Assembly: GCF_000016185.1 (NCBI RefSeq)
Contig: NC_011420.2
Span: forward strand, 2,438,501-2,502,500
Direction: 5' to 3'
Origin: Rhodospirillum centenum SW
GTDB taxonomy: Bacteria; Pseudomonadota; Alphaproteobacteria; Azospirillales; Azospirillaceae
Length of the DNA stretch: 64,000 nucleotides
The notes beneath the pieces are model-generated. The model did not search any database. It was not told where the DNA came from and saw only the letters and a list, made by a program, of their open reading frames with translations. The position numbers were made by a program, and so were the translations under genes. Below are positions 6,354-44,260 of this stretch, piece by piece; position 1 is the stretch's first letter, and every line of letters begins with the position of its first letter.

Positions 6354-6768
6354 CCTGTCCGGCGTCCGGTCCGGATACCAGCCGGATCGGCATCCATAGT
6401 CCCATAGTCCCTAGTCCCATAGCCCAGTCCGACGGGGGCAGGCATCCCGGATGTCCTGAAGCACAAGGAAACCACATCCGGATTCAAAACAAAACTAACC
6501 CGAAATCGTCAGCGAATTATAGTCACGCTTTTTACCACTTTTTTGAGCCGCATTATCTCACACAGCCTGCGACAAAACTTCTTGGGTGTGCGATTTCGGC
6601 CTTACCTCACCCTTACGGATTAATCCTCAATTAGTGAACTACCCCGATCCTGTGGGGGCTCGGCAGGACCTGAACATCCGTTCGGAGATCCGATGTCGGC
6701 AGCCACGGCCTGCCCTTCCGCTTCCGGAAAGGACGGGTCGCCCGCAGACCACGGATTGGGACCGACCC
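6354..6768 (+). promoter_or_regulatory. AT-rich leader and promoter region of the beta-helix gene
   Basis: About 415 bases without a gene. The first part carries imperfect short repeats of CCATAGTC (6394-6424). Positions about 6480-6640 are far more AT-rich than the rest of the window and include runs such as CTTTTTACCACTTTTTTG and the palindrome GGATTAATCC (6618-6627). This is most simply a promoter and 5' leader for the gene at 6769. No promoter boxes can be assigned with confidence. A longer frame from 6586 is open into the gene, but its first 61 codons lack protein-like character. Confidence 0.45.
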
Positions 6769-9051
6769 ATGTCTACCTACGTTTCCATCACGGATTTCGG
6801 CGCCCGCGGCGATGGCCGCACGGACAACAGGGCCGCCATCCAGAAGGCGCTGGACCACGCCAAGGCCACGGGCCAGGCGGTGTACGTTCCCGAGGGGAAC
6901 TTTCTGCACAAGGGCGTGCTGAAGATCGACGGCGTGGACATCTACGGCGCCGGGGGCAAGTCCGTGCTGAAGGCCGTGGGGGCGGCCAGCTCCGACGCCC
7001 AGGCCCTGATCGTCAGCGGCGACGGCGCCTCCATCAAGAACCTGACGCTGGACAGCGACGCGACGGCCCGGGGCGGCACCGGCAACAGTGCCAAGGTCTG
7101 GGTTGTCGGCGCCAAGAACTTCGAGATCGATCACGTCACCATCAACAATTCCTTCGGGGCAGGCATCCTGGTCGGCAAGGAATCCGCCTTCGGGAAGGTG
7201 ACGAACAACGCGGTGAAGAACACCAACGCCGACTCCATCCACTTCTACCAGGGCTCCCACGACATCCTGGTGAAGGGGAACCGGGTGGAGAATTCGGGCG
7301 ATGACGGGATCGCCGTCGTCAGCTATGCCAAGAACGCCGCCTGGACCCAGGACATCACGATCGAGAACAACACGATCGTGAACAACCACTGGGGCCGGGG
7401 CATCAGCGTCGTCGGCGGCCAGGACGTGGTGATCCGCAACAATCTGGTGGACGGCAACAAGAACGGGGCCGCCGGCGTCTACATCGCCTCCGAACCGGCC
7501 TACGACACCTGGGGCGTCAAGAACGTCACTGTCGAGAACAACACCATCAAGAATGTCGGCGGCTACAGCACCGGCCACGGCGCCGTGATGATCTATTCCG
7601 GCACCAGCCGGATGGTCGAGGACATCATCGTCCGTAACAACCAGATCCTGGACGCCGAGAAGAACGGCATCTTCGTCCGCGGCGACAAGATCGACGACAT
7701 CCTCCTGTCGAAGAATCTGATCGCCGGCTCCGGCGCGGCCCCCATCGCCATCTCCGGCAAGGCGACGGACGTGGTGCAGACCGGCAACGTGACCGACCCT
7801 GCCGCCTGGAAGCCGTCAGGCTCCAGCCCGGTGGAGCCGGTGCCCACCCCGATCCCTGCGCCGGCCCCGACACCGGAAGCGAAGACGCTGGCGGTTACCG
7901 TCTACGCCGCCGGCGACGACTACAAGGGCGACCCGCAGTTCCGCCTGCTGCTGGACGGCAAGGCCTTCGGCAGCGCCCAGACGGTGACCATGGACCGCGG
8001 CGACGGCTGGCAGCAGTTCAAGTTCAACCTGCCTGCCGGGACCGACCCGAACCGTATCAGCGTCGAGTATTTCAACGACCTGTACGGCGGCAAGGGGATG
8101 GACCGGAACCTGGAGATCGACAAGATCGTCGTCGGGAACCAGACCTTCGATCCAGGCAAGGCCGGCTTCCTGACCAGTAACGGCCAGATCAAGGTCGTCC
8201 TGCCGGCCGACGCGCCCGCTCCGACCCCCGCTCCGGCTCCGACCCCCGCACCGGCACCCGCACCGGCACCCGCTCCGGCCCCGGCCCCGCTCAAGGTGAC
8301 GGTCTACGCCGCCGGCGACGCCTACAAGGGCGATCCGCAGTTCCGCCTGCTGCTGGACGGCAAGGCCTTCGGCAGCGCCCAGACGGTGACCATGGACCGC
8401 GGCGACGGCTGGCAGCAGTTCAACTTCAACCTGCCCGCCGGGACCGATCCCGACCGCATCAGCGTCGAGTATTTCAACGACCTGTACGGCGGCAAGGGAA
8501 TGGACCGGAACCTGGAGATCGACAAGATCGTCGTCGGGAACCAGACCTTCGATCCGGGCAAGGCCGGCTTCCTGACCGGCAACGGGCAGGTCCACTTCGA
8601 TCTGCCGGACAGCCCGGCGCCGGCTCCCGCGCCCGTCCCGACGCCGACGCCCAAGCCGGCTCCCGCACCGACGCCCAAGCCGGTGCCGGTTACCGTCTAC
8701 GCCGCGGGCGACGACTACAAGGGCGACCCGCAGTTCCGCCTGCTGCTGGACGGCAAGGCCTTCGGCAGCGCCCAGACGGTGACGATGGACCGCGGCGACG
8801 GCTGGCAGCAGTTCAAGTTCAACCTGCCCGCCGGAACCGATCCGAACCGTATCAGCGTCGAGTATTTCAACGATCTGTACGGCGGCAAGGGGATGGACCG
8901 GAACCTGGAGATCGACAGGATCGTCGTCGGGAACCAGACCTTCGATCCGGGCAAGGCCGGCTTCCTGACCGGCAACGGGCAGGTCCACTTCGACGTGGTG
9001 AAGGTGGACTTCCTCGGGCTGGCGGGACTCGCCACCCACACCGACCTCTGA
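6769..9051 (+). CDS. Right-handed beta-helix polysaccharide-active protein with three CBMs
   Basis: 760-residue modular protein. Residues 3-50 (DFGARGDGRTDNRAAIQKAL then VYVPEGNF) are the entry segment of the Pectate_lyase_3/AlgE-type beta-helix fold. Regular Asn-rich coils (ENNTIVNN, IRNNLVDGNKNG, VRNNQIL) continue to about residue 345. Three near-identical 93-residue modules follow, joined by Pro/Ala/Thr linkers. Each has VEYFNDLYGG and DRNLEIDKI-type segments like the calcium-dependent xylan-binding modules CBM36/CBM60. Lyase, epimerase or hydrolase activity cannot be told from the motifs. No signal peptide is seen, so export may use a type I or other route, or the start may be misplaced. 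The ATG at 6769 starts exactly at the domain edge. Confidence 0.8.
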   Translation: MSTYVSITDFGARGDGRTDNRAAIQKALDHAKATGQAVYVPEGNFLHKGVLKIDGVDIYGAGGKSVLKAVGAASSDAQALIVSGDGASIKNLTLDSDATARGGTGNSAKVWVVGAKNFEIDHVTINNSFGAGILVGKESAFGKVTNNAVKNTNADSIHFYQGSHDILVKGNRVENSGDDGIAVVSYAKNAAWTQDITIENNTIVNNHWGRGISVVGGQDVVIRNNLVDGNKNGAAGVYIASEPAYDTWGVKNVTVENNTIKNVGGYSTGHGAVMIYSGTSRMVEDIIVRNNQILDAEKNGIFVRGDKIDDILLSKNLIAGSGAAPIAISGKATDVVQTGNVTDPAAWKPSGSSPVEPVPTPIPAPAPTPEAKTLAVTVYAAGDDYKGDPQFRLLLDGKAFGSAQTVTMDRGDGWQQFKFNLPAGTDPNRISVEYFNDLYGGKGMDRNLEIDKIVVGNQTFDPGKAGFLTSNGQIKVVLPADAPAPTPAPAPTPAPAPAPAPAPAPAPLKVTVYAAGDAYKGDPQFRLLLDGKAFGSAQTVTMDRGDGWQQFNFNLPAGTDPDRISVEYFNDLYGGKGMDRNLEIDKIVVGNQTFDPGKAGFLTGNGQVHFDLPDSPAPAPAPVPTPTPKPAPAPTPKPVPVTVYAAGDDYKGDPQFRLLLDGKAFGSAQTVTMDRGDGWQQFKFNLPAGTDPNRISVEYFNDLYGGKGMDRNLEIDRIVVGNQTFDPGKAGFLTGNGQVHFDVVKVDFLGLAGLATHTDL
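7897..8970 (+). repeat. Three intragenic 279-bp repeats coding for carbohydrate-binding modules
   Basis: Copies at 7897-8175, 8299-8577 and 8692-8970 each encode a 93-residue module from TVYAAGD to AGFLT. They are almost identical at DNA level, with only scattered third-base changes and a few substitutions (Asn/Asp after TDP, Lys/Arg before IVVG). The linkers (PAPTPAPAP-type) differ in length, giving spacings of 402 and 393 bases. The high DNA identity points to recent duplication or ongoing gene conversion. Confidence 0.92.
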
Positions 9052-39699: not shown

Positions 39700-40272
39700 T
39701 CAGTCCGCGCCGCCCGCGGTCGGGGTGCAGCGCGGCAGGTCGGGCGGTGCGGGCTGCCAGGTCTGGCTGCGACCGAACCAGGGGATGCCGACATAGCCGC
39801 GCACCCGCAGCCGCTCCGGCCCCTCGACATGGACACGGGCGCGGTAGGTCTCGCCGCTGCTGGGATCATAGACGCGGCCGCCGGTCCAGTCGTCCGCCCC
39901 GTCCCGCTCCAGGCCCCAGATCACAGTCAGGCCGCAGAGGTCGCGGTCGCGCAGCGCCGGGTCGGGATTGCGCCGGTCCTTCGCCACGCCGTCGGGATAC
40001 TGGTCGGGCCGGCCCCAGACCAGCCGGCCGCAGAGCGACGGTCCGCAGGCGAAGAACTCCACCGCCGCCTTGCCGTTCTGCATCATCCAGACACCCCGCG
40101 GCACCGCCGCCCCGTCCGCAGGGGCCGCCGCGGCCGGCAGCGGCGCGAGAAGGACGACGCCCGCCAGCAGGGCGGCCGGAGCGAGGGCGGGGGCGACCCG
40201 CGCGGGCCGCCATTGCCTAGCCGGGCCGCAGCCCCTATGTTGCAGCGGCTTTCGGAGGCAGTCCCGTTCCAT
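39700..40272 (-). CDS. Exported DUF2147-domain protein
   Basis: 190 residues from the ATG at 40272. A long basic n-region is followed by a hydrophobic core ([20 protein letters not shown]) and a cut near residue 50. The DUF2147 domain follows: [55 protein letters not shown] and [18 protein letters not shown]. The family is periplasmic and of unknown role. Its ATG and the lepA ATG on the other strand share the tetramer CATG, which leaves no space between the two genes. The upstream frame continues to 40308 within lepA. Confidence 0.78.
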
Positions 40273-42073
40273 GACCGATCTTTCCCGCATCCGCAATTTC
40301 TCCATCATCGCGCATATCGATCACGGCAAGTCCACGCTGGCGGACAGGCTGATCGAATTCTGCGGCGCCATCGAGGCGCGGGAGATGAAGGCCCAGCTCC
40401 TCGATAACATGGACATCGAGCGGGAGCGCGGCATCACGATCAAGGCGCAGACCGTCCGCCTGAACTACAAGGCCAAGGACGGCGAGATCTATCAGCTCAA
40501 CCTGATGGACACGCCGGGCCATGTGGACTTCGCCTACGAGGTTTCGCGCTCGCTCGCCGCCTGCGAGGGGTCCATCCTGGTGGTGGACGCCAGCCAGGGC
40601 GTGGAAGCGCAGACGCTCGCCAACGTCTATCAGGCGATCGACGCCAACCACGAGATCGTCCCCGTCCTGAACAAGATCGACCTGCCGGCGGCCGACGTTC
40701 CGCGGGTGAAGCAGCAGATCGAGGACGTGATCGGGCTGGACGCCTCGGACGCGGTGGAGGTCTCGGCCAAGTCCGGCATCAACATCGACGGCGTGCTGGA
40801 GGCGATCGTCACCCGCCTGCCGCCGCCCAAGGGCGATGCGGCGGCGCCGTTGCAGGCGCTGATCGTGGACAGCTGGTACGACGCCTATCTGGGCGTCGTC
40901 GTGCTGGTGCGCGTCGTCAACGGCGAGCTGCGCACCGGGCAGAAGGTGCGCTTCATGGCCACCGGCGCCACCCGCGAGCTGGACCGCGTCGGCATCTTCG
41001 GACCGAAGAAGATGCTGGTGGACAGGCTGGGGCCCGGCGAGATGGGCTTCGTCACCGCCGCCATCAAGGACATCCGCGACACCAAGGTGGGCGACACCAT
41101 CACCGAGGAGAAGCGTCTGGCGCCGACGCCGCTGCCGGGCTTCAAGCCCTCCATCCCGGTGGTGTTCTGCGGCCTGTTCCCGACCGATGCCGCCGATTTC
41201 GAGGATCTGCGCGAAAGCCTGGGCAAGCTGGCGCTGAACGACGCCAGCTTCCAGTTCGAGATGGAAAGCTCGGCCGCGCTGGGCTTCGGCTTCCGCTGCG
41301 GCTTCCTGGGCCTGCTGCACCTGGAGATCATCCAGGAACGGCTGGAGCGCGAGTTCAACCTCGACCTCATCACCACCGCACCGTCCGTCGTGTACCGCAT
41401 GCACATGAACGACGGCACGATGAAGGAGATGCACAACCCGGCCGACATGCCCGACCCGGTGAAGATCGACCGGATCGAGGAGCCGTGGATCAAGGCCAAC
41501 ATCATGCTGCCGGACGAGTATCTGGGCGGCGTGCTGCAGCTCTGCACCGAACGGCGCGGCATCCAGAAGGACCTGACCTATGTCGGCGGCCGCGCCATGC
41601 TGGTCTACGAGCTGCCGCTGAACGAGGTGGTGTTCGACTTCTACGACCGGCTGAAGTCCATCTCCCGCGGCTATGCCAGCTTCGACTACGTGCTGGAAGG
41701 CTACCGCGAGGGCGACCTGGTGAAGATGTCGATCCTGGTCAACAACGAGCCGGTGGACGCGCTGGCCATGATCGTCCACCGCACCCAGGCCGAATACCGC
41801 GGCCGCCAGCTCTGCGAGCGGCTGAAGGACCTGATCCCGCGCCACCTGTTCAAGATCCCGATCCAGGCGGCCATCGGCGGCCGCGTGATCGCGCGCGAGA
41901 CCATCGCCGCGCTGCGCAAGGACGTACTGGCCAAGTGCTACGGCGGCGACATCAGCCGCAAGCGCAAGCTGCTGGACAAGCAGAAGGAAGGCAAGAAGCG
42001 CATGCGCCAGTTCGGGGAGGTGGAAATCCCCCAGAGCGCCTTCATCGCGGCGCTGCGGATGGGACAGGAGTAG
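40271..42073 (+). CDS. lepA: Elongation factor 4 (LepA)
   Basis: 600 residues, the full family length. GTPase motifs are [14 protein letters not shown] (G1), RGITIKAQ (G2), MDTPGHVDF (G3), NKIDLP (G4) and SAKSG (G5). The EF-G-like domains follow, and the LepA-specific C-terminus ends [16 protein letters not shown]. It acts on stalled ribosomes and in 30S assembly. GGAGG lies 12 bases before the ATG, a rather long distance. A TATGTT at about 40236 may be a promoter -10 box inside the DUF2147 gene. Eight foldback repeats follow directly downstream. Confidence 0.97.
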
Positions 42074-42130
42074 GCGGCCGGCCCAGCCCGCCCTCTGACC
42101 GGCCCGCCGCTCCAGAGTCCCGTAGGGCCT

Positions 42131-43440
42131 GGAAACACGGATGGCACGGATGCCGGCTGCGCCGGCGCACGGATGGCACGGATAAGGGGATACCCCCTGT
42201 CCGTGTTCATCCGTGGAAATCCGTGTTCATCCGCGTTCCTGAAATACCGGCCGTGGGCGGTCCATCCTGGACAGCGATGCGCCGTAGTCCCCTGGGGCCT
42301 GGAAACACGGATGGCACGGATGCCGGCTGCGCCGGCGCACGGATATGCACGGATAAGCAGATATCCTCTATCCGCGTTCATCCGTGGAAATCCGTGTTCA
42401 TCCGCGTTCCTGAAATACCGGCCGTGGGCGATCCATCCTGGACAGCGATGCGCCGCGGTCCCCTGGGGCCTGGAAACACGGATGGCACGGATGCCGGCTG
42501 CGCCGGCGCACGGATATGCACGGATAAGGGGAGAACCCCTGTCCGTGTTCATCCGTGGAAATCCGTGTCCATCCGCGTTCCTGAAATACCGGCCGTGGGC
42601 GATCCATCCTGGACAGCGATGCGCCGCGGTCCCCTGGTGCCTGGAAACACGGATGGCACGGATGCCGGCTGCGCCGGCGCACGGATGGCGCGGATAAGGG
42701 GATACCCCCTGTCCGTGTTCATCCGTGGAAATCCGTGTTCATCCGCGTTCCTGAAATACCGGCCGTGGGCGGTCCATCCTGGACAGCGATGCGCCGCGGT
42801 CCCCTGGGGCCAGGAAACACGGATGGCGCGGATGCCGGCTGCGCCGGCGCACGGAGGGCGCGGATAAGGGGAGAACCCCTGTCCGTGTTCATCCGTGGAA
42901 ATCCGTGTTCATCCGCGTTCCTGAAATACCGGCCGTGGGCGGTCCATCCTGGACAGCGATGCGCCGTAGTCCCCTGGGGCCTGGAAACACGGATGGCACG
43001 GATGCCGGCTGCGCCGGCGCACGGATATGCACGGATAAGCAGATATCCTCTATCCGTGTTCATCCGTGGAAATCCGTGTTCATCCGCGCTCCTGAAATAC
43101 CGGCCGTGGGCGATCCATCCTGGACAGCGATGCGCCGCGGTCCCCTGGGGCCTGGAAACACGGATGGCACGGATGCCGGCTGCGCCGGCGCACGGATATG
43201 CACGGATAAGCAGATATCCTCTATCCGCGTTCATCCGTGGAAATCCGTGTTCATCCGCGTTCCTGAAATACCGGCCGTGGGCGATCCATCCTGGACAGCG
43301 ATGCGCCGCGGTCCCCTGGGGCCTGGAAACACGGATGGCACGGATGCCGGCTGCGCCGGCGCACGGATGGCACGGATAAGGGGATACCCCCTGTCCGTGT
43401 TCATCCGCGGAAATCCGTGTTCATCCGTGTCCAGAAAATG
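42131..43440. repeat. Array of eight 170-171 bp foldback repeats
   Basis: Units start with GGAAACACGG at 42131, 42301, 42472, 42643, 42813, 42983, 43154 and 43325; the last is incomplete at its end. Each holds CACGGATGGCACGGATGCC, the palindrome GCCGGCTGCGCCGGC, another CACGGAT pair, a short variable core, then ATCCGTGTTCATCCGTGG and AATCCGTGTTCATCCGCG. The left and right CACGGAT/ATCCGTG blocks can fold back on each other. Three core variants occur, in the order A B C A C B B A (GGGGATACCCCC, GCAGATATCCTC, GGGGAGAACCCC). The array fills the gap between the convergent lepA and SDR genes. Several frames stay open across it, but nothing suggests a protein. Confidence 0.95.
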
Positions 43441-43498: not shown

Positions 43499-44260
43499 TC
43501 ACTTCGGGGCCATGCGCAGGGCGCCGTCCAGGCGGATGGTCTCGCCGTTCACCATGGTGTTGGTGCAGATGAAGTGGACGAGGTCGGCATATTCCTCCGG
43601 CCGGCCCAGCCGGGGCGGGAACGGGACGGAGGCGGCGAGGCTGTCCTGCGCCTCCTGCGGCAGGCCCAGCATCATCGGCGTCAGGAACAGGCCGGGGGCG
43701 ATGGTCACCACCCGGATGCCGAAGCGCGCCAGTTCGCGCGCCGCCGGCAGGGTCAGCGCATGGACGCCGCCCTTCGAGGCGCCGTAGGCCGCCTGACCGA
43801 TCTGCCCGTCGAAGGCGGCGATGGAGGCGGTGTTGACGATCACCCCGCGCTCCCCGTCCGCCAGCGGGTCGAGCCGCTGCATGTCGTCGGCCGCCAGCCG
43901 CAGCACGTTGAAGGTGCCGATCAGGTTCACCTCGATCACCCGGCGGAACAGGTCCAGGCTGTGCGGCCCTTCCTTGCCCAGCACCTTGGCCGGGGTGCCG
44001 ATGCCGGCGCAGTTCACGGCGATGCGGGCCGGCCCGTGCCGGTCGCGCGCCGCGGCGATGGCCGTGGCCGCCCCTTCCGCGCTGGACACGTCGCACAGCA
44101 CGGCGAAGCCGCCGATCTCCCGCGCCACCGCCTCGGCATTGCCGAGATTGACGTCCAGCACCGTCACCCGCGCCCCGGCCGCGGCCAGCCGGCGCGCCGT
44201 GGCCGCCCCCAGGCCCGAACCGCCGCCCGTGACCAGCGCCGCCATACCCTTCACATCCAT
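43499..44260 (-). CDS. Short-chain dehydrogenase, 3-hydroxyacyl-CoA dehydrogenase-like
   Basis: 253 residues of the classical SDR fold. The NAD site is [16 protein letters not shown] near residue 10, with acid LDVN after strand 2, which favours NAD. NCAGIG is near 84, [11 protein letters not shown] near 144 (Ser), and the catalytic YGASKGG near 159. It most resembles the type II 3-hydroxyacyl-CoA dehydrogenases (HSD17B10-like) of fatty-acid or isoleucine breakdown. The substrate is inferred from overall similarity. Confidence 0.85.

Follow-up and report, generated by a model that had tools for sequence, protein, structure and literature searches.

The window, a 64,000-nucleotide stretch of the single-contig genome of Rhodospirillum centenum SW (4,355,543 bp), contains the gene lepA and a convergent gene of the SDR oxidoreductase family. 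The gap between them is occupied by an array of eight direct units of 170–171 bp each, all in one orientation. A preliminary description of this DNA had placed eight direct tandem units between two convergent genes, and we confirm both points. lepA ends at 42073 on the plus strand and the SDR gene at 43499 on the minus strand, and the TRF call (42117–43427, period 171, 7.7 copies) agrees with the unit starts, which are those of the elements in Table 1 and lie 170 or 171 bp apart.

Table 1. Features of the array and its flanking genes, in window coordinates
Feature	Position	Strand	Basis or remark
lepA, translation elongation factor 4 (TIGR01393)	39968..42073	+	ORF list; lepA profile begins at ORF residue 107
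Whole tandem array, eight same-orientation elements and seven near-identical spacers of about 59 bp	42117..43433	+	TRF, unit alignment
Element 1, core A	42131..42241	+	Unit comparison, folding
Spacer 1 of seven	42242..42300	.	By eye; as expected of tandem duplication of an element plus flanks
Element 2, core B	42301..42412	+	Unit comparison
Element 3, core C, B-like background	42472..42583	+	Unit comparison
Element 4, core A	42643..42753	+	Unit comparison
Element 5, core C, A-like background	42813..42923	+	Unit comparison
Element 6, core B	42983..43094	+	Unit comparison
Element 7, core B, identical to element 2	43154..43265	+	Unit comparison
Element 8, core A, right end of the array	43325..43433	+	Unit comparison; flank beyond resembles spacer start
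SDR-family oxidoreductase, FabG-like, convergent with lepA	43499..44260	-	ORF list, profile; gene end at 43499

One unit consists of a palindromic element of about 110 bp and a spacer of about 59 bp. From left to right, the element carries a left ladder (CACGGAT twice), a side hairpin (GCCGGC-TGC-GCCGGC), a second left ladder, a core hairpin, and right ladders reading ATCCGYG. Its inverted arms are ladders of a single heptamer, CACGGAT/ATCCGTG, repeated at a spacing of 9–10 bp, about one helical turn. By eye, the starts of the spacers resemble the right flank of the array and their ends its left flank, so that the array seems to go back to tandem duplication of one element along with its own flanks.

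Pairwise identity among units 1–7 is 91–100%, with a mean of 95%, and the variation among the array units, at 24 alignment columns, is mosaic. Comparing the units gave the core order A B C A C B B A, just as first reported. The GGGG and CCCC halves of cores A and C had also been said to move together. This coordinated movement is absent, since the two cores are only two substitutions apart, both within the loop, and their stem letters are identical and at the same position. Core B forms a different and weaker hairpin (about −6 vs −15 kcal/mol). The background of core C is B-like in unit 3 and A-like in unit 5 (alignment columns 45 and 131), which suggests that the units exchanged core variants and supports the exchange among units considered earlier.

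Fold of the unit and its compensatory changes

A single unit folds at −96 kcal/mol on the plus strand (z −6.4) and at −90.4 kcal/mol on the minus strand (z −5.8). On both strands, 0 of 200 shuffles were as good, so that the structure signal lies far above that of shuffled sequence. The 111-bp element folded as ssDNA has a z of −7.7, and its fold, as RNA or as DNA, is a three-way junction composed of the arms and the side hairpin.

On the family level, RNAalifold took a slipped register on the ladders, and the structure was therefore named by hand. In this hand-named structure, 92.2% of the cells are paired, compared with at most 41.2% when it is slid by one to three columns. The excess of paired cells over shuffles is slight (92.2 vs 91.2%), and the cells changed on both sides number 17, against 6.9 in shuffles. 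Two of the five whole-structure measures (pairs with changes on both sides, and further pair types) do not rise above shuffles.

The rows of alignment A1 (28 rows) were mostly chosen for a perfect side hairpin, and its side-hairpin count is therefore biased. A scan of side-hairpin slots that was not conditioned on pairing is less so. It showed 6/6 pairing in 40 of 43 slots, with seven different stems, a count obtained by hand sorting of 126 rows; the 40 include seven near-identical units of the array. When all 65 distinct slots are taken, ladder slots included, 22 are perfect, versus 0.5% of shuffles. These compensatory side-hairpin stems support the idea that the folded form is under selection at the level of the repeat family. 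The earlier suggestion of such selection thus stands on the family-wide stems, whereas its original argument from cores A and C falls.

Dispersed copies in this genome and its relatives

Searched against the genome, the unit is not a single occurrence. A decamer pattern gave 44 matches, of which 23 fall in the array and the other 21 at seven loci elsewhere (hand grouping), and the reversed pattern, used as a control, gave 0. The genome therefore has eight ladder loci by hand grouping, with some copies degenerate or differently arranged; their placement relative to genes was read for the window array. Two other loci are tandem too, with periods of 144 and 175 and with different spacers. By eye, the ladders at the tandem site of period 175 (L042, genome 1949817–1950260) run the opposite way, with ATCCGTG preceding CACGGAT, and the spacers there are unlike. 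On the same record (genome 1939350–1939690), we notice by eye a ladder element between inverted CACGGAG/CTCCGTG repeats, which may be another ladder family placed around the first.

Among 82 genomes of the same bacterial family, this one included, 38 have a decamer match; 12 have at least six matches, and the count reaches 70 in one relative. Four genomes of another genus of this family carry copies with the same layout, whose consensus reads TTTTGACACGGATGAACACGGAT, side hairpin, CACGGATGAACACGGAT, core, ATCCGTGTTCATCCGTG, GAT, ATCCGTGTTCATCCGTGTC.

Several of these copies are nested. In G012, G003 and G013 (L191, L206 and L279, respectively), CACAGAT-type palindromes sit by eye within the cores of CACGGAT-type elements. 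Also by eye, several elements of G012 (L194, L197, L199, L202) lie within a second inverted repeat, about GGGCAACGAAGTCAGGTTAAC..., and these doubly enclosed elements may be a composite that multiplied as a whole. In G078, the 3' ends of group II introns (RF00029, 41.7 bits each) are located inside or against ladder elements (L310:560–634 and L313:913–987), so that these introns may use the palindromes as targets.

Comparison of orthologous sites revealed elements present in one species and absent from another. For two elements of G012, at the L196 and L198 sites, G017 or G043 share the flanking sequence and lack the element, the intergenic bases having diverged. At a third site (L299/L307), the element is found in G079 and G078, and G080 has GGATCC in place of the element's ends. 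The occupied sites read GGATCA...TGATCC, which fits a 4-bp target duplication or a scar alike; G081 is without GGATCC at this site. No clear target-site duplication was found at the sites compared among relatives, no clean junction emerged at L297 or L315, and an empty site sought for the GxxExxY locus of G079 (see below) was not found. At these sites of relatives, the element is thus present or absent between species of related genera.

A second tandem duplication was seen. In G078, two copies stand 175 bp apart, separated by a spacer made of right plus left flank, and G079 and G080 have a single copy at this site. The G078 pair has the anatomy of the window array, at an early stage.

The ladders themselves vary in length. 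At one orthologous site in three species (L296, L306, L317), they comprise 4, 2 and 3 heptamers, and the GxxExxY locus of G080 also shows a ladder difference of one decamer. Ladders at an orthologous site thus differ by whole decamers, implying that ladder length changes in 10-bp steps.

GxxExxY genes and heptamer ladders

The only match to GxxExxY (TIGR04256) in this genome is a 31-codon C-terminal fragment, under both curated cut-offs (TIGR04256, PF13366). It lies about 50 bp from a ladder whose polarity is opposite to the canonical frame and which, by eye, resembles the right arm of a noncoding copy that has decayed. A profile search of the genome found no intact GxxExxY gene, between ladder arms or elsewhere. 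Because this sole match is a fragment near a ladder, we examined GxxExxY genes elsewhere. In relatives, several of them are located between inverted ladders of CACGGAT/ATCCGTG, AACGGAT/ATCCGTT or CACAGAT/ATCTGTG.

We applied a ladder test that is blind to the word, requiring an exact hexamer repeated at fixed spacing upstream and its complement repeated likewise downstream, within 250-bp flanks. It covered 80 GTDB loci, the best 80 of 203, whose record titles span many phyla and are mostly metagenome bins, and 30 family loci; three GTDB loci with short flanks and one family locus (L053, by hand) were left out. All GTDB counts that follow come from this best 80 of 203. At a spacing of 9 or 10, inverted ladders frame 37/77 GTDB and 14/29 family loci, that is 51 of 106, a set whose members are not all independent, several genes being near-identical. 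The other 55 are negative, and among the 51 positives a few owe their result to deviant words (L080, L110, L121, perhaps L114).

Other spacings gave different counts. The test was positive at 0/77 GTDB and 2/29 family loci for spacings 7/8, at one GTDB and no family locus for 11/13, and again at one and none for 14/15. Spacing 12 alone gave 0/77 and 7/29, and adding it to 9/10 gained one locus; spacing 20 gave 10 GTDB and 3 family loci. With the windows shifted by 400, 700 and 1000 bp, ladders were found at 0/71, 0/69 and 0/66 GTDB loci, respectively, and at 0/29 family loci each time. When the upstream flank of a locus was combined with a downstream flank taken from a different locus, the test gave 17/376 and 2/138 (spacing 10 only). 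Genes of the comparator small-gene family TIGR02436, which we presumed might share such repeats, had ladders in 0/17 cases, 2 of 19 having been dropped for short flanks.

The polarity of the ladders is constant. A word could be classified at 42 of the 51 framed loci, and all 42 point into the gene, one with an outward word as well; six of the nine loci without a classifiable word carry CAGATT or CGGATT. The heptamer type, moreover, tracks protein distance (Mantel r 0.42, 0/5000 permutations) among 33 proteins, reduced from 42 by removing near-identical ones. In G078/G079, the noncoding copies and the GxxExxY element have the common termini GGATCACGGATG..ATCCGTGATCC. Among 17 GxxExxY-carrying loci that were read, the side hairpin is not evident on most arms; it is found mainly on noncoding copies. 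In G003, G012, G013 and G017, the GxxExxY arms are of the CACAGAT type, and the dispersed copies counted there are of the CACGGAT type, the sole type searched. Eight plasmid records had a match.

At the genome level, repeats and GxxExxY co-occur. A GxxExxY match is present in 11/12 repeat-rich genomes (one being a fragment) and in 26/70 others (p 0.0008), or in 10/12 and 25/70 above the curated cut-off (p 0.003), repeat-rich meaning 6 or more matches, a cut that was picked after the counts were seen. Common ancestry could explain part of this correlation and of that between heptamer and protein.

In an alignment of 30 GxxExxY proteins, D73, E83 and K85 are invariant besides the name-giving G, E and Y. 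A D and an ExK constitute the PD-(D/E)XK motif of the restriction-endonuclease-like fold. The predicted structure (pLDDT 95) has its closest structural match in SSO0001 (Z 11.3, 98 residues, 3.2 Å), and the archaeal resolvase Hjc aligns with Z 8.0 over 84 residues at 3.1 Å; a Z near 8 may reflect only the common nuclease core. A PDB sequence search with one GxxExxY protein returned no relative. By motif and model together, GxxExxY is a small protein with the PD-(D/E)XK nuclease fold, a fold that alone is no proof of function. We know of no tested function for this conserved family.

Both the fragment found here and the framed genes of other genomes match the described family TIGR04256/PF13366 (PDDEXK_3). 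What differs is the framing, and the ladders seem undescribed in open-licence passages on the family. Passages on GxxExxY in the open-licence literature do not mention repeats, PDDEXK_3 together with repeats was not found there, and ladder strings of 13–16 letters gave matches that were unrelated by title, further strings giving none. The R. centenum genome paper is without terms for palindromes, transposase or intergenic regions, its one mention of repeats being of PPE-repeat proteins, and the RepRanger paper is without terms for RAYT, Azospirillum or nuclease. Within these passages, the element class, a PD-(D/E)XK-fold gene framed by heptamer ladders, seems to be undescribed.

Origin of the array

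The array is most likely the tandem amplification of a noncoding palindromic mobile element. More precisely, we assign a probability of about 0.68 to the reading that its unit is a noncoding palindrome from the GxxExxY-ladder family, spread by the nuclease and later duplicated in tandem to eight units. The palindrome would belong to, or derive from, a family of inverted heptamer ladders (9–10 bp) that frames a GxxExxY gene. The GxxExxY nuclease would recognise the ladder, probably when it is extruded as a hairpin or three-way junction, and would cut it, and repair of the break would copy the element to new sites. Short geneless copies would spread as followers, like REPs with RAYTs or MITEs with transposons. 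In the gap between lepA and the SDR gene, slippage or unequal exchange at the palindrome may have duplicated one copy along with some 59 bp of the sequence flanking it. Tandem growth would then have reached eight units, after which core variants were exchanged. We infer both that the nuclease binds or cuts the ladder and drives the spread, and that tandem growth took this route. As the only GxxExxY match in the genome is a fragment, the array is probably a relic, with recombination as its sole source of change.

A wider claim is more tentative, and we would put it a little below even odds. GxxExxY proteins would be the enzymes of an unrecognised, phylum-spanning class of mobile elements, whose PD-(D/E)XK nuclease recognises and cuts ladders folded into hairpins or three-way junctions and which leave noncoding followers such as the array. 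To our knowledge, the source of extragenic palindromes in bacteria without a RAYT is an open question. If the claim is true, GxxExxY elements would be a second, RAYT-independent answer to it. A specific, co-varying ladder frames GxxExxY in about half of the 106 loci, in many phyla, and also occurs as dispersed noncoding copies. Such framing allows a direct test with one protein and one substrate. The array also shows how palindromes of this kind can give rise to tandem repeats; in a second such case, two relatives have just one copy at the orthologous site.

A different explanation is that the ladders are moved by other machinery, for example a general replication or repair route, with GxxExxY as a passenger or as a protein that polices or exploits palindromes. 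The repeat-rich relative G077, which lacks a GxxExxY match, speaks for it, as do the half or so of GxxExxY loci without ladders and the side hairpins residing mainly on noncoding copies. We nevertheless consider it unlikely, though it deserves to be taken seriously, in view of the specific framing across many phyla with matched, co-varying heptamers of constant polarity, and the genome-level co-occurrence of repeats and GxxExxY.

The array could also be a structured RNA or DNA element with a host function, such as a bidirectional terminator, an insulator or a small-RNA source, that is kept between lepA and the SDR gene. Its very strong fold on both strands, its placement between convergent 3' ends and the compensatory stems of the family are what such an element would lead one to expect. 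The preliminary description had implied a link to this gap, which the comparison among relatives does not support. lepA was matched in 80 of 81 genomes, this one included, and the region downstream was read in 29 relatives with loci. A CACGGAT-type ladder lies 3' of lepA in 0/29 (1.5 kb was covered in 27 of them and about 0.8 kb in the other two), and the SDR gene likewise in 0/29, although the same search recovers the SDR gene in the window as a positive control. The array therefore appears not to be tied to lepA in relatives. Moreover, ladder copies occur at seven other loci, terminator-like sites in the region are at chance (1 found vs 1.1 expected in shuffles), and an Rfam search of the region returned, at E up to 1, only a snoRNA model far below its cut-off. 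Taken together, a host-functional element is improbable.

A REP/BIME family mobilised by a RAYT (TnpA_REP, Y1 tyrosine transposase) would likewise produce dispersed palindromes, tandem clusters and a patchy distribution. The likeness to REP/BIME families with longer units and no nearby RAYT, drawn in the preliminary description, is a fair analogy, as the palindromes are dispersed and the whole genome has 0 matches to Y1_Tnp (PF01797, RAYT/IS200-type). With this absence, we do not regard the array as a RAYT-type REP. According to the RAYT-REP study (PMC2817692), the RAYT gene is flanked by two inverted REPs with noncoding copies dispersed in the same genome, REP and RAYT co-evolve, and REP copy number is tied to the presence of the RAYT gene. 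The ladder family resembles that described system in its framed enzyme gene, its dispersed noncoding copies, the co-variation and the link of copy number to the gene, and so follows the same logic with another enzyme. That enzyme, GxxExxY, has the PD-(D/E)XK fold, in contrast to the tyrosine transposase related to IS200/IS605, and the ladder arms consist of heptamers at 9–10 bp within elements of about 110 bp that bear a side hairpin. The eight units, furthermore, share one orientation, whereas those of BIMEs alternate. Nine of the 12 repeat-rich genomes, including that of R. centenum, lack a Y1_Tnp match, and Y1_Tnp is not associated with repeat-richness (3/12 vs 19/69, p 1). With elements of this length as well, mobilisation by a RAYT is very improbable.

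Least credible of all is an assembly artefact, the collapse or expansion of a single repeat, since near-identical tandem units, hard as they are to assemble, here vary at 24 alignment columns in a mosaic within a single-contig genome that has tandem copies at two more sites and ladders at another five.

Returning to the reading as a mobile palindrome, two further systems are instructive. A MITE is a short noncoding element that shares terminal inverted repeats with a coding relative and has a target-site duplication. The ladder family resembles MITEs in the termini common to noncoding copies and gene-carrying element (G078/G079) and in its presence or absence between species. It differs from them in that the gene-carrying relative encodes no known transposase, the ends are of ladder type rather than plain terminal repeats, target-site duplication is not established, and no intact gene-carrying copy is present in this genome. 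The array element may be called a MITE only by analogy.

Repeated heptamers in intergenic sets, with a patchy and possibly horizontal distribution, also occur as the TAACTGA repeats of Beggiatoaceae (PMC4679880). Those repeats are nearly all direct and mostly lie just upstream of start codons (PMC4679880); they differ from the ladders in being direct instead of paired inverted, in their heptamer, and in that no linked nuclease gene is mentioned for them.

Elsewhere in the window, a tandem repeat with a period of 393 bp (7892–8994, 2.8 copies) lies within an 821-codon ORF on the plus strand (6586–9051).
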